From positions 1 to 35,683 of the forward strand of contig JAKBMM010000031.1 of the NCBI GenBank assembly GCA_021831565.1: a DNA stretch of 35,683 nucleotides. The letters run 5' to 3'. Below the pieces are notes generated by a model. It did no database searches, was not told the DNA's origin, and saw only the letters and a program-made list of their open reading frames with translations. This document shows positions 5,156-16,729 of the stretch, in pieces; positions within the stretch are counted from its first letter, which is position 1, and every line of letters begins with the position of its first letter. The position numbers and the translations under genes are program-made. The DNA comes from Planctomycetota bacterium (lineage in GTDB: Bacteria > Planctomycetota > Phycisphaerae > WQYP01).

Positions 5156-5183
5156 TTGACCCCCCGGCTGGATATCCTAAAAT
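5156..5183 (+). promoter_or_regulatory. Sigma-70 type promoter of tRNA-Lys and ychF
   Basis: TTGACC at 5156-5161, a 16-nt spacer, and TAAAAT at 5178-5183. Each box matches five of six consensus bases. Transcription would start near 5190, about 17 nt before the tRNA. The same arrangement (TTGACT, 16 nt, TAAAAT) recurs at 13784-13811. Confidence 0.7.
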
Positions 5184-11057: not shown

Positions 11058-13739
11058 ATGAGCGAGCCATTATCTGAGCCGAATTCCATGAACCGGCGCG
11101 AGTTTGGAGCCGTTTGGGCGGCGGCGGTATTGGTTGCGGCCGGCTCCCGCAGTATGCCGGAAACACCCAAGTCCAACATGGTTTCGACGGACCATCCCCG
11201 CGTAGGCATCTGCGACGAAGCGTACAACAAGGCGTGGAAGCGCGCCGCGGCGTGGGTCGCGAAAATGACGCTGGACGAGAAGATCAGCCAGACCGGCAAT
11301 AATGCTCCAGCCATTAAGCGGATTGGTTTGCCCGCGTATCAATATTATGCCGGAGAAGCGTTGCATGGTCTGCGCCGCCTGCCGCCGGTAACCCTCTTCC
11401 CGGTACCCGCGGCGCTGGGTTGCACATGGAACCGGGAGTTGATCCGCCGCGTCTTTCACGCCGTGTCTGACGAGGCCAGGGCCTATCACAATACCTACGG
11501 CGTCTGCCTGACCTATTACTCTCCCAGCACGCTGAACATCACGCGGGATCCGCGCTGGGGCCGTTGCCAGGAGGTTTACGGCGAAGATCCCTGCCATCTG
11601 AGTTCCCTGGCGGTGGAGTCTGTCCGGGGGATGCAGGGCGAGAATCCGAATTATCTTAAAACCACCGCCTGCGCCAAAGCCCTTATCTGCAACAACACGG
11701 AAAATGACCGTCTGCGAGCGGATGCGTCGGTTGATTCGCGCAGTTTCTGGGAGTATTACACGCGGGCGTACCGCGCTTGTGTTATGGATGGCGACGTCTT
11801 GACCATGATGGGCGCCTACAACGCCATCAATGGCGTGCCCTGCTGTGCCGATCATTTTTTGCTCACCCATCTGCTGCGCGACCGCTGGGGCTTCCGCGGG
11901 TATGTCGTCTCCGATTGTGACGCCATCGCCGTTATTGTTGACGGGCATCATTACGCGTCCACGCTGCATCAGGCCGCGGCGCTGGGTATCCAGGCGGGAT
12001 GTGACCAAAATTGCGGCTACACGTTTCAGCAACACTTGCGCAAGGCGGTTGATCTGAATCTGGTCAGCGCGGCGGATATCGGCCGCGCGGTGGTTCGCGC
12101 ACTGACCGTCAGGTTTTTACTCGGTGAGTTTGATCGCGCCGAAACGGTTCCTTACAAAACCATAAGCATGGACGTGGTCGATTCTCCCGCGCACCGCGCC
12201 TTGGCTTTGGAAGCGGCGCGGCAATCGGTGGTGCTGCTCAAAAATGACAACCATTTACTACCCCTGAATAAATCGGCGCTCCAATCGGTGGCTATCGTAG
12301 GTCCCACCGCCGGATTCCAGGCCGGCAGTTACGCCGGATTTCCAGCCGTTCACGTTTCACCTTTGGACGGCATTGCCGCGGCCTTGGGTGTGGACGTTTC
12401 AAGGGGGCTTGTCCGCACCGGCGAGGCGGTTGGTTTAAGCCCCAATCTGCGGGACCAGGGTGCGCCAGGCAGCAGAACCAATTTCGATTTCGCCCGCATT
12501 CCCAATGGTTCCTGGATGGAATTTCCTCCGCAGGATTTCACCGACAAGCGGGAAATGGTCATACGCGTCGCCAGTTTGGCGCCGGGTGGAAATATTGCCG
12601 TGCACCTGGATGGTCTGGACGGACCGCTGGCCGCCAAACTCGATATTCCATCCGGCGGTTGGCACATTTACACCGACGTGTCCGCTCCCCTGCGTGGCAT
12701 CACCGGCAGCCATAAAGTATTTTTAAGATTTTCCTGTCCCGCCGGGACCCTGTTCAAAGTCCATTGGTTTGAACTCCTGCCGCCGCCGCCCCTGGCGCCG
12801 CGGGCCGGCCGGCCGAAGGTTGTTTACCATACCGGCTGCGGCATTCTGGGCGAAAAGGATGAAAAGGCTTTTCTGGAAGCGGTGCGCGCCGCCAGAGAGG
12901 CCGATCTGGCCATCCTGGTTTGCGGCATCGACCAATCGGTTGATTGCGAAGGAAAGGATCGCCACAGCATAGATCTGACCGGTCCGCAACATGAATTGAT
13001 TCGGGCGGTACATGCCGCCAATCCCCAAACCGTATTGGTGCTTAATACCAATAATTCCGTCGCCATCAATTGGGAAAAACAAAACATCCCCGCCATCGTT
13101 TGTTCCCTCTTCGCGGGCCAGGCCCAGGGAACCGCCATTGCCGATGTGTTGTTCGGCAACTACAACCCGTGCGGCAAGTTGCCGACGACATGGTTCCAAT
13201 CCGTCGATCAGCTCCCGCCGTTCCACAATTACGATGTCATGCGGGGCCGCACGTATATGTACTTTGAAGGCGAACCGCTGTATCCGTTCGGGTATGGCCT
13301 GAGCTACACACAATTCAAGTACAGCGATCTGAAGATCAGCGCCCCAACACTCGGTCCAGGCGGAACGGTAAGCGTATCGGCCAAAATTCACAATACCGGC
13401 GGCCGCGCCGGCGCCGAAGTGGTGCAATTTTATATCACCGCTCCCAAGTCGCCGGTAAAACGGCCGAGCAAGCAGTTGGCGGGGTTTGCCAGAATTGAAC
13501 TCAAGGCTGGCGCGAGCAAAACGGTGATCTTTACTCTGCCGTTTGAGGAGCCGGCCCTGTGGTATTGGCATGAGAAGCAAAGAAGATTTGTGCTTGCGCC
13601 GGGAATTCTCAAAGTGATGCTGGGCCGTTCCGCGGCGGATATCCCCCTCCACGGCGAAGTGACGCTGGAACCCGCGGCCGGCGACCACGGAGGCCCGGAA
13701 ATGTTGCCATCGGTCGCCGTCGCGGTACGAGTGGTATAA
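11058..13739 (+). CDS. GH3 family glycoside hydrolase with CBM6-like insert, Tat-exported
   Basis: Expected to remove terminal beta-linked sugars (glucosidase/xylosidase type) outside the cytoplasm by a retaining mechanism. The 893 residues contain a twin-arginine signal (NRREFGAVWAAAVLVAAG, about 11-28), the GH3 TIM barrel with nucleophile D286 (GYVVSDCDAI), and the second GH3 domain with likely acid/base E631 (CEGKDR). A CBM6-like beta-sandwich is inserted at about 470-575 (GLDGPLAAKLDIPSGGW region), and a fibronectin III-like domain closes the protein. The usual substrate-binding Lys-His pair (KHF) reads K207-A208-L209, so the histidine is missing. AAGGA at 11048-11052 supports the start. 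The neighbourhood with the GxGYxYP-type gene suggests polysaccharide use. The substrate cannot be deduced. Confidence 0.9.
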   Translation: MSEPLSEPNSMNRREFGAVWAAAVLVAAGSRSMPETPKSNMVSTDHPRVGICDEAYNKAWKRAAAWVAKMTLDEKISQTGNNAPAIKRIGLPAYQYYAGEALHGLRRLPPVTLFPVPAALGCTWNRELIRRVFHAVSDEARAYHNTYGVCLTYYSPSTLNITRDPRWGRCQEVYGEDPCHLSSLAVESVRGMQGENPNYLKTTACAKALICNNTENDRLRADASVDSRSFWEYYTRAYRACVMDGDVLTMMGAYNAINGVPCCADHFLLTHLLRDRWGFRGYVVSDCDAIAVIVDGHHYASTLHQAAALGIQAGCDQNCGYTFQQHLRKAVDLNLVSAADIGRAVVRALTVRFLLGEFDRAETVPYKTISMDVVDSPAHRALALEAARQSVVLLKNDNHLLPLNKSALQSVAIVGPTAGFQAGSYAGFPAVHVSPLDGIAAALGVDVSRGLVRTGEAVGLSPNLRDQGAPGSRTNFDFARIPNGSWMEFPPQDFTDKREMVIRVASLAPGGNIAVHLDGLDGPLAAKLDIPSGGWHIYTDVSAPLRGITGSHKVFLRFSCPAGTLFKVHWFELLPPPPLAPRAGRPKVVYHTGCGILGEKDEKAFLEAVRAAREADLAILVCGIDQSVDCEGKDRHSIDLTGPQHELIRAVHAANPQTVLVLNTNNSVAINWEKQNIPAIVCSLFAGQAQGTAIADVLFGNYNPCGKLPTTWFQSVDQLPPFHNYDVMRGRTYMYFEGEPLYPFGYGLSYTQFKYSDLKISAPTLGPGGTVSVSAKIHNTGGRAGAEVVQFYITAPKSPVKRPSKQLAGFARIELKAGASKTVIFTLPFEEPALWYWHEKQRRFVLAPGILKVMLGRSAADIPLHGEVTLEPAAGDHGGPEMLPSVAVAVRVV

Positions 13740-13783
13740 AACGGTAAATACATAATCCCACCGCGGCCAGCCCGGGGCTGCGC

Positions 13784-13811
13784 TTGACTAACGATGTTCG
13801 GATCATAAAAT
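13784..13811 (+). promoter_or_regulatory. Strong sigma-70 type promoter for the RNA/trmB region
   Basis: TTGACT at 13784-13789, a 16-nt spacer, and TAAAAT at 13806-13811. Five of six consensus bases match in each box. It lies 45 nt after the GH3 stop codon and about 290 nt before trmB. A start near 13818 would put the whole structured region 13833-14057 in the transcript. It closely resembles the tRNA-Lys promoter at 5156-5183. Confidence 0.65.
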
Positions 13812-13817
13812 GGAGTT

Positions 13818-14067
13818 TGTCTGATGGAGGCAGGTGGGAGTTTGTGTCCGAGTTTGTCTCCCGCCGGTGAATTGAACAAGTGAGGTCTGCGGCATTTTCC
13901 TGATCGCGGCAAGTTGCCAGCGACGCCCGCGCAAAAATTATGGGGAGCGGGCTTTATGCCCAGACGGTAAATTTATTGTACTCTTGCCGCCACCGTGTGG
14001 GTTCCCACTTTGCTCACACGAAAGCTGTCGCGCCCCACTCGGCAGCCCTGTGGCGGCTTTTTATTTG
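13818..14067 (+). ncRNA. Candidate structured RNA or leader upstream of trmB
   Basis: A 250-nt non-coding stretch with three independent folds in series. Fold 1 is 13833-13840 paired with 13858-13865 (8 bp, one G-U). Fold 2 is a three-way junction closed by 13885-13895 with 13956-13965 (10 bp, one bulged C), enclosing hairpins 13908-13911/13915-13918 and 13925-13930/13947-13952. Fold 3 is a second three-way junction closed by 13986-13993 with 14050-14057 (8 perfect bp), enclosing 13994-13999/14015-14020 and 14024-14030/14040-14046, and followed by TTTTTATTTG. The last junction therefore doubles as an intrinsic terminator, 17 nt before the trmB start. I recognise no known RNA family (not tmRNA, RNase P, SRP, T-box or B12 class by motif). 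It may be a small RNA or an attenuating leader. Confidence 0.6.
14050..14067 (+). terminator. Terminator of the structured RNA candidate
   Basis: The 3' strand GTGGCGGC (14050-14057) of the closing helix is followed by TTTTTATTTG. Its partner strand is 13986-13993, so the terminator stem is capped by a three-way junction rather than a simple loop. It lies 8 nt before the trmB start codon. Confidence 0.6.
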
Positions 14068-14074
14068 TCAGAGC

Positions 14075-14701
14075 ATGGCCTTGCGCGCGAATCTTGTTGT
14101 CGAACCAATCCTCCTGAATATCCACGAAGAGCAAGGTTACCTGCGCTGGCCGGAGGTTTTCGAAAACGACCATCCGGTGCAGATTGAAATCGGCTCGGGC
14201 AAGGGCGCTTTTCTGGTCGCCGCCGCAACCGAGCAGCCGCAGTGTAACTTTCTCGGCATTGAATGGGCGCGGGCGTATTGCAATTTCGCCGCCGACCGTC
14301 TTCGGCGCCGCGGGCTTTACAACTGCCGAATGGTGCGGGCGGAAGCGTTCGGGTGGATTCAAGCGCACGTGGCCGCCGCTTCCGTCGCCGCCGTGCACAT
14401 CTATTTCCCCGATCCCTGGCCGAAATCGCGACATCACAAACGTCGCCTCATTCAGCCGGCGTTTATTGAGCAGGTGTGGAGAATTCTCGCACCGCTGGGA
14501 AAAATGCGCATTGTCACCGATCATCAGGGCTACTTTTCTTATATGGAGGAGACGCTTAGGAGTTGTCCATTTCTCCCGCGCGTACCGTTCGATTCGCCTC
14601 TGACCGGTTCGGACGGAATGCTGGTGGGGACCAATTTCGAGCGCAAGTACGCCGGCGAAAATCGCCCCTTCTATTCGTTGGCCGTCCGCAAGCCCTCCTG
14701 A
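14075..14701 (+). CDS. trmB: tRNA (guanine-N7-)-methyltransferase TrmB
   Basis: Methylates N7 of G46 in the variable loop of tRNAs with S-adenosylmethionine. The 208-residue product shows the SAM motif EIGSGKG (38-44), an FLGIEWA segment (59-65), and the TrmB hallmark FPDPWPKSRHHKRR (111-124). GTNFERKY near the C terminus matches the conserved TxxE motif. Start: the ATG at 14075 gives the normal family length; the frame is open back to 13940 but that part is the structured RNA region. No good ribosome-binding site is visible. The T-run of the upstream terminator ends about 8 nt before the start, so expression may depend on read-through. It converges with the gene at 14740. Confidence 0.93.
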   Translation: MALRANLVVEPILLNIHEEQGYLRWPEVFENDHPVQIEIGSGKGAFLVAAATEQPQCNFLGIEWARAYCNFAADRLRRRGLYNCRMVRAEAFGWIQAHVAAASVAAVHIYFPDPWPKSRHHKRRLIQPAFIEQVWRILAPLGKMRIVTDHQGYFSYMEETLRSCPFLPRVPFDSPLTGSDGMLVGTNFERKYAGENRPFYSLAVRKPS

Positions 14702-14739: not shown

Positions 14740-15510
14740 TTACCAGTTGACGCTCGGCGGCTTGCCGATCAAGTCGCGTACGCGGGTCTGGATGATTTCC
14801 TTACGTTGTTTCTGGCGAAGCTGAAATTGTGTTTTGAGCTTGTTGAGGCGGCGCAGCAGAAGGTTCAGTTCGTGCGCGCGAATCCGTTGATGGAGTTCGA
14901 ATTGGGAAGTGACCACCTTGACCAGTTCATTTTGCAGTTTTTTCATCTGTGCCGGCGGCAGGTTCGGTTGCCGCAATTCGCCGGCGATTTGGAAGGATTG
15001 GTGTGTATCCGCCAGATTTTCAAGGGTCATGTCGAAAAGCTTGGAATCGGATTTCTGCAGTTGTTCGAGTCGTTTGAAATTTGGCGCGGCCTTGTTGATG
15101 AGCGTGACGAATTGTTTCGGATCCGTTCGCCGCAAAACCTGGGCCTTGTGGTAGGTCTCCGGTTGTGTTTTGTGGAGGAATTCCATGATCTGATTGATTT
15201 GTGCAGGTGTGAGTTGCGGGGGCGGCGGGGGCGGCGCCTCCTTTTTCACCGGTGGTTTCAATGCCGCAGGCGCCGTGGTCGTAGCTGGCGGCGGCGAGTG
15301 CGGCGCTACCTTTTTCATCGTCATTTTCGAAGTTGCGGGTGAAGGGGTCGTAGTTGGCCGCGGAGAGGGTGATGGGCGCGGCGCCCCCCTTGTCACCGGT
15401 GCGTTCGCAGCCGCAGGCAACGCAGCCGAAACAAGCCGTCCCGTCAGCAAACCCAGGGCGGTGGACAAAGTGATCAGGAGCGATCGAGTATGCGGGCGGA
15501 TGATCATCAA
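14740..15510 (-). CDS. Secreted proline-rich coiled-coil protein, sigma-factor operon
   Basis: A 256-residue protein of unknown function. A signal peptide (hydrophobic segment at about 10-30) is followed by a low-complexity Pro/Thr/Ala linker (about 38-98, including a run of six prolines) and then an all-helical, highly charged C-terminal half (about 100-250) rich in Leu, Gln, Lys and Arg, likely coiled coil. GGAG lies just upstream of the start. It is third in a minus-strand operon after an ECF sigma factor and a membrane anti-sigma-like protein (30-bp gap). The context suggests an extracytoplasmic sensor or effector of that regulatory unit, loosely comparable in layout to CpxP/Spy-type periplasmic proteins, but no sequence relationship can be claimed. 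Confidence 0.7.
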   Translation of the reverse strand: MMIIRPHTRSLLITLSTALGLLTGRLVSAALPAAANAPVTRGAPRPSPSPRPTTTPSPATSKMTMKKVAPHSPPPATTTAPAALKPPVKKEAPPPPPPQLTPAQINQIMEFLHKTQPETYHKAQVLRRTDPKQFVTLINKAAPNFKRLEQLQKSDSKLFDMTLENLADTHQSFQIAGELRQPNLPPAQMKKLQNELVKVVTSQFELHQRIRAHELNLLLRRLNKLKTQFQLRQKQRKEIIQTRVRDLIGKPPSVNW

Positions 15511-15540
15511 TTCGGAGTCTCCTTCCAGGCCGTGCTGGTA

Positions 15541-16155
15541 TCAATAGCCGGCATCGTTCGGCGCCGGCGCCGTTTCGGCGAGATGCACCTTATCCAGGGC
15601 GTTGAGCAGATTCATCCAGTTCGCATCGCCAAGGCCGGATTCCGCAGCCAGACCGCGCGACTTTTCCATTCGTTCTATGCGACGGGCCAGCAAACCGAGC
15701 GGAGAGTTGTTTGTCCCGGGCAGATCGCTCTGTGCCACTTCCTGAAACGTATTTTCGGCGTCGAGAATATTCTGTTCCTGGATTTGCTCGCGCAACCGGA
15801 CCAGATAAACACCGGCGGCGATGATCAGACAAGCCGCCACACCTGACGCCACCGACAGACACCGGTAGATGGCTCGCATCATTTTTCGCCGACGCTCCAT
15901 GTGCCGCTGTTGTTCCAGGGCTTTGTGAATGCCCTGCTTGATGGAAGCGGCGATCCGCGCGCGGCTTACCGGGTCGAGTTCCTCGTGCAGCCGCGGCAGC
16001 GATTGCAGTTGGTCAAACCGGCGGCGAATTTGCTTGTACTCAAGCTGGGCCGCCGGATGGGTTGATAAGTATTTCCACAGGTGTTTCCGAGCATCGGCGC
16101 CAAGTTCTCCGGAAACAGCAAGCAGGCAGGTTTTTGATAAGCTAAATTGTTTCAT
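15541..16155 (-). CDS. Membrane anti-sigma-like protein
   Basis: A 204-residue protein with one transmembrane segment at about 98-117 (SVASGVAACLIIAAGVYLV). The N-terminal cytoplasmic part (1-95) is helical, charged and could bind the sigma factor; it lacks the HxxxCxxC zinc motif of classical ZAS domains. The region after the membrane segment is about 85 residues. Its start overlaps the end of the sigma gene by 14 bp, the usual coupling of sigma and anti-sigma genes. The assignment as anti-sigma rests on this context and topology, not on a recognised domain. Confidence 0.6.
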   Translation of the reverse strand: MKQFSLSKTCLLAVSGELGADARKHLWKYLSTHPAAQLEYKQIRRRFDQLQSLPRLHEELDPVSRARIAASIKQGIHKALEQQRHMERRRKMMRAIYRCLSVASGVAACLIIAAGVYLVRLREQIQEQNILDAENTFQEVAQSDLPGTNNSPLGLLARRIERMEKSRGLAAESGLGDANWMNLLNALDKVHLAETAPAPNDAGY

Positions 16156-16729
16156 GGCTCACCTCCATGAGAATGCGCAACTTGCCCAACGCCCGGTGGG
16201 CGCGAGCCAATACGGTGCCCAGCGGACAGTTGAGCGTCCTGGCTATTTCCTTAAAGGGCATGTCGGAAAAATGCCGCAAAAACAGCACGTGTTTTTCCAT
16301 GTCCGATAACTGCTCCATGGCGTCAAATAAGCGGTCGACGTTTTCCTTGAGTTCCAGCGGTTCCGAAGGAGCGGCAGATTTTCCCGGTAGTCCATCGATC
16401 ACGCCGAGAGAGTGTTCGCCGTTGCGTGCAACGGTAAGGGGCGCGGGATGGAGCGATTTCATCCGCCCCTGGTCGCGAATCAGATTGAGCAGAATGCGAA
16501 ACATCCACGCTTCAAACTTGCCATAATCGTCGTACCGGCCGAAACGTTGTACGATTCGCAAAAACGTTTCCTGGACGAGGTCGCCGGCCAGCGCTTCATT
16601 CCTGGTGGCACGAAGGGCGTAACCGTACAACCGCTCCCAGTACAGGTCCACCAGCGCGTCCCATGCGCCGCGGTCACCGGTGCGACATCGCGCCATCAAG
16701 AAGGTAAGGGCCTGCGAATCCACAGCCAT
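16142..16729 (-). CDS. ECF-type RNA polymerase sigma factor
   Basis: A 195-residue group 4 sigma factor with only regions 2 and 4. Region 2 (about 25-95) contains DLVQETFLRIVQRF and the FEAWMFRILLNLIRD helix for -10 recognition. Region 4 (about 135-190) contains the helix-turn-helix LPFKEI-like segment MPFKEIARTLNCPLGTVLARAHRALGKLR in two parts, for -35 recognition. It heads an operon with the anti-sigma-like gene (14-bp overlap) and the secreted coiled-coil protein. A TATAAT on the minus strand (16833-16838) overlaps the divergent rpsU -10 box, but its -35 region is poor, which would fit an activated or auto-regulated promoter. The target regulon is unknown. Confidence 0.92.
   Translation of the reverse strand: MAVDSQALTFLMARCRTGDRGAWDALVDLYWERLYGYALRATRNEALAGDLVQETFLRIVQRFGRYDDYGKFEAWMFRILLNLIRDQGRMKSLHPAPLTVARNGEHSLGVIDGLPGKSAAPSEPLELKENVDRLFDAMEQLSDMEKHVLFLRHFSDMPFKEIARTLNCPLGTVLARAHRALGKLRILMEVSHETI

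Follow-up and report, generated by a model that had tools for sequence, protein, structure and literature searches.

Organization of the locus

The window analysed here, a 35,683-nt stretch of DNA from a Planctomycetota bacterium, carries on its plus strand a candidate small RNA gene. It is preceded by the coding region of a family 3 glycoside hydrolase that also carries CBM6 and Fn3-like domains (11058-13739), which lies just upstream, and followed by trmB, whose ATG is found 7 nt past the G at 14067. The features of the RNA are collected in Table 1. The glycoside hydrolase region has no homologous continuation in the sister species G001, and a rearrangement border is therefore placed near 13770; the upstream sequences of the two species are unrelated, and a match of around 90% sets in approximately 15 nt ahead of the -35 hexamer. 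Beyond trmB, an ECF-type sigma factor (16145-16729) is followed on the minus strand by two conserved proteins without a Pfam match (15544-16155 and 14743-15510), so that this trio spans 14743-16729. The whole trio also adjoins trmB in genus g7; in g8 the two Pfam-less proteins recur near this gene. The outer neighbours change between genera, and trmB is the only neighbour of the RNA that is conserved across them.

Table 1. Features of the RNA gene and its usual downstream neighbour, in window coordinates.
Feature	Position	Strand	Details
Promoter of the RNA	13784-13811	+	TTGACT (13784-13789), 16 nt, TAAAAT (13806-13811)
Genus-specific 5' part of transcript	13818-13985	+	89% identical in sister species G001, no indels
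Semi-conserved 5' flank of junction, 6-8 nt	13978-13985	+	GTACTCTT in window; GATCCTY, GAACCTC or GAAACT elsewhere
P1, 5' strand	13986-13993	+	GCCGCCAC, invariant; pairs with 14050-14057
P2 hairpin	13994-14020	+	13994-14002 with 14012-14020; loop UCCCACUUU at 14003-14011; covarying helix
P3 hairpin	14024-14046	+	14024-14030 with 14040-14046; loop CGCCCCACU at 14031-14039
P1, 3' strand, and T-rich tail (intrinsic terminator)	14050-14066	+	GTGGCGGC; T-run in all 21 copies
trmB (tRNA m7G46 methyltransferase)	14075-14701	+	Pfam PF02390, E 1.2e-37

Promoter and extent of the transcript

A first-pass annotation of this DNA had described a near-consensus promoter close to that of a tRNA-Lys gene, and both sites are present in that form: the promoter of the RNA agrees with the consensus at 10 of 12 positions, and the tRNA-Lys promoter at 5156-5183, TTGACC-16-TAAAAT, is nearly identical to it. 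Both hexamers are the same in the sister species, while the spacer varies. Of 19 genomes, 15 have a site of the form TTGACN-16-TANNNT no more than 360 nt upstream of the junction, where dinucleotide shuffles predict 0.085; the flanking DNA at these loci holds 0.0026 such sites per 360 nt. The distance from the -10 hexamer to the junction ranges from 97 to 349 nt across genomes, so that the transcript would be roughly 170-420 nt long; in the window its start is placed about 7 nt after the -10 hexamer, at 13818, which predicts a length of approximately 245 nt. As in small RNAs with C-rich loops, the sequence points to an independent unit, through the promoter statistics, the terminator and an isolated locus in one genome (G006, described below), and the RNA is thus predicted to be its own transcription unit with its own promoter and terminator.

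Conservation and distribution of the RNA

When the whole RNA region was compared with 60 relatives, only its 3' 80 nt matched outside the genus, and the hyperconserved part is this 3' half, 13986-14066 in the window. Minus-strand loci were reverse-oriented before alignment, and a covariance model was built from the 16 distinct sequences obtained. With this model we find exactly one copy in 21 of the 28 genomes of the order, and one copy in every good-quality genome (all 17 with a completeness of 90% or more). The seven genomes without a match are all 53-88% complete. Six of these also have no trmB match, and in the seventh, G011, the upstream region is cut off, because trmB lies 143 nt from the contig end. 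The model gave no credible copy in the rest of the 397 genomes of the class, nor in 294 genomes of the phylum. The only class match outside the order (G324) sits inside an apparent coding region and was judged false, as was a weak match to a GC-rich inverted repeat in the phylum sample (G448); a looser pattern scan of the genome contigs returned mostly chance matches among the matches listed.

The comparison spans about ten genera, between which the junction is 86-97% identical and the DNA of trmB 62-66%. No Rfam family matches the RNA at gathering score and none that fits was found in sensitive scans, in agreement with the earlier failure to recognise a known family; a literature search found nothing on this RNA.

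The terminal three-way junction

The conserved 3' end forms a three-way junction (13986-14057) that is directly followed by TTTTTATTTG. Alone, the junction of the window has a predicted folding energy of -39 kcal/mol with a z-score of -5.0, and none of 200 shuffles folded equally well; the z-scores of the junction folds range from -3.7 to -5.9. The GC-rich stem with a U-tract directly 3' of it has the form of an intrinsic terminator. Across the 16 distinct sequences all eight pairs of P1 are without variation, and in P3 five of seven pairs and the loop are invariant. Two pairs of P2 have changed on both sides (U-A to C-G and G-C to A-U), in nine cells of the alignment; this number of cells was reached by none of 500 shuffles, while a count of two pairs was reached by 213 of them. 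In the consensus structure 97.6% of cells are paired, compared with at most 47% in slid controls. The loop cores, CCCACUU in P2 and the complete P3 loop, are likewise invariant among the 16 sequences, and the motif CCCACU is common to both loops. These are conserved C-rich hairpin loops in which the runs of C are only 3-4 long.

The length of the junction varies between 71 and 73 nt depending on the genome, so that no reading frame is kept, and a coding explanation is thereby ruled out. The first-pass annotation had proposed that no ORF accounts for the RNA and that it ends in a three-way junction with an 8-bp closing stem followed by a T-run, and both claims hold. Conservation and compensatory change in relatives had been set as its check: relatives retain the 3' half, where P2 covaries and P1 and the loop cores are without change. 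This invariance and the high identity relative to trmB exceed what the structure needs, and the sequence of the junction itself therefore appears to be under selection.

The 5' part of the transcript

No similarity to the 5' part was detectable in other genera, where identities of 50-58% are at the level of a forced global alignment. Folded alone it does no better than shuffles (z -0.76), and in the sister species the corresponding segment takes on a different predicted fold that retains some of the pairs and breaks others. The first hairpin and first three-way junction of the first-pass annotation, which occupy this segment, are accordingly not upheld. The whole 266-nt region folds with a z-score of -1.5, which is due to its 3' part. 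In genera g3, g5, g6, g8 and g9 most leader folds surpass those of shuffles, with differing shapes; a leader structure common to the genera was rejected on these differences and on an RNAalifold covariation term of +2 for four g3 leaders, which leaves the leader fold a candidate. The semi-conserved flank immediately before P1, present at all loci, might be a processing or binding site. We also note a potential 9-bp pairing, including two G-U pairs, between AGGTGGGAG of the leader (13833-13841) and loop 1 (UUCCCACUU); the z-score of this duplex is -2.3 in g1, -2.4 in g7 and near zero in most other genera.

Relation of the RNA to trmB

In 19 of the 21 loci trmB directly follows the junction in the same orientation, across a gap of 17-142 nt that narrows to 17-24 nt in g1 and g9. 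The gap contains no promoter-like site above 8/12 in g1, g2, g3, g9 and g10, so that expression of trmB in these genera may require read-through or transcription that starts further upstream; read-through may occur where the gap is 17-24 nt. In G008 a gene of 456 amino acids intervenes between the RNA and trmB. In G006 the RNA sits in the middle of a 47-kb contig (C127), flanked by one divergent and one convergent gene; its promoter and terminator are intact, no same-strand gene lies downstream, and trmB is on another contig (C18). Unless this contig is misassembled, the RNA can therefore exist without a target in cis, and owing to this genome it does not show the constant upstream, same-strand position of a riboswitch or attenuator of trmB. 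An anti-terminator common to the genera, formed by the leader and P1, was not supported, since such pairing gave no consistent gain over shuffles. An 8-bp candidate is limited to the genus of the window: GCGGCAAG (13904-13911) is fully complementary to CTTGCCGC (13983-13990, reaching into the start of P1) and is kept in the sister species. This pairing is possibly a genus-specific anti-terminator or a product of chance.

Comparison with known small RNAs

The closest working analogues are small RNAs with C-rich loops, which are a functional class and not one homologous family. In sX13 of Xanthomonas, a strongly structured small RNA gene, the active C-rich hairpin loops (4C loops) act independently of Hfq on G-rich mRNA motifs, which confer regulation (PMC3771888); for the RNA described here such pairing is proposed. 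The architecture differs, as in sX13 the three stem-loops are separate and two show CCCC in the loop, whereas here two CCCACU loops are held within a single three-way junction that the terminator stem closes, and we claim no sequence relation between the two. The 6C/B11 RNAs of actinobacteria likewise use two loops rich in C, one of which belongs to the Rho-independent terminator, to pair with G-tracts near ribosome-binding sites, and in mycobacterial B11/6C it is the C-rich terminator loop that acts as the seed (PMC12395582). Their loops carry 6-9 cytosines in separate hairpins, whereas ours carry 3-4 C followed by AC within the junction, and the RNA has no match to the 6C family of Rfam.

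A model for the function of the RNA

We tentatively interpret the locus as a stand-alone small RNA gene whose C-rich loops repress mRNAs by pairing in trans. In this model a housekeeping sigma-70-type promoter would drive a transcript of the length estimated above, and its 3' end, the hyperconserved three-way junction, would double as the intrinsic terminator. The two loops with their common motif would be the working part, pairing with G-rich sites near the ribosome-binding sites of target mRNAs and so repressing them, and the fast-changing 5' part may serve as a spacer, contribute to stability or be processed off. Given sX13 and 6C/B11 as analogues, pairing between the C-rich loops and G-rich sites in mRNAs would be the most likely mechanism. 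In genome G000 the complement of the whole of loop 2 (11 nt) occurs only in the RNA gene itself, and the full complement was thus not found as a conserved target; any pairing with targets would therefore be shorter, through a core such as GUGGG. Against this model, seeds confined to the loops leave the sequence invariance of all eight P1 pairs unexplained, and an unlinked small RNA does not need the proximity to trmB on the same strand that is seen in most genera.

Genome comparison delimits the gene and supports its single copy, its conservation, its 3' structure, its promoter and, in one genus, its independence from trmB; its transcription, the base pairing in trans and the targets of this pairing are what we infer. 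As judged from these sequences, the RNA represents a new small RNA family specific to the order, known in its general kind and unusual in build. Its terminal domain, rather than the previously described 5' junction, is the part that matters, and a single copy in all good-quality genomes together with a near-constant 72-base end indicates that the RNA probably has an important regulatory job in the order.

The main rival, which we consider rather doubtful, is a protein-binding RNA: the rigid junction would present the twin CCCACU loops to one or two molecules of an RNA-binding protein, and the RNA would act as a sponge or belong to a small ribonucleoprotein. It gains its place from the fixed P1 that loop pairing leaves unexplained: the sequence of P1 throughout, and of P3 for the most part, is kept more strictly than the structure needs, one motif recurs in both loops, and no conserved trans target answers to the whole of loop 2. 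Our analysis, however, identified no known protein of such specificity, and apart from trmB the neighbourhood holds no genes conserved across genera.

Distinctly less probable is a cis-acting transcription attenuator of trmB, in which leader and junction would stop transcription ahead of the gene and permit read-through only upon a signal. The persistence of same-strand linkage in nearly all genomes although the outer neighbours vary by genus, the short gaps in g1 and g9 with no promoter-like site above 8/12, and the perfect leader complement in the genus of the window would all suit such a device, but the leader/P1 pairing does not rise consistently above shuffles across genera, and the junction is extremely stable. 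The gene that intervenes in G008 and the isolated locus of G006, where promoter, leader and junction have no same-strand gene to control, also argue for a stand-alone RNA rather than an obligatory attenuator, and attenuation in cis is not supported by the sequences as its general function. The alternatives offered by the first-pass annotation, a small RNA or a ligand-responsive attenuator of trmB, are thereby separated: promoter, structure, terminator, the lack of a known family and the comparison of about ten genera support the small RNA well, while the G006 locus and the lack of an anti-terminator common to the genera speak against the attenuator. That the element is a strong intrinsic terminator and nothing further is very improbable; every copy does have a GC-rich stem and then a T-run, but this gives no reason for letter-exact P1 and loops across ten genera, nor for exactly one copy per genome.

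A single-copy hyperconserved RNA outside Rfam suggests an important function in uncultivated planctomycetes. If real, the terminator of this RNA would at the same time be the domain under the strongest constraint, and the RNA would possibly add a further independent case of paired C-rich loops as a regulatory device. A bolder proposal, which we regard as unlikely, sees in the 72-nt junction the core of a ribonucleoprotein or global regulator that is essential and specific to the order; this would be a new class in which the intrinsic terminator itself serves as a rigid functional domain of fixed sequence and the remainder of the transcript is free to change.

6S RNA in the order

The RNA resembles 6S RNA (RF00013) in being a single-copy, structured non-coding RNA of around 200 nt with its own promoter. 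It differs in that 6S-like matches occur at other loci in 18 of the 28 genomes of the order; with these matches elsewhere, and no RF00013 match in the window, identity with 6S RNA was rejected. The probable 6S RNAs of the order (L195 to L204 and further loci) all but one score below the Rfam gathering score, and 6S RNA may therefore be under-annotated in these planctomycetes.
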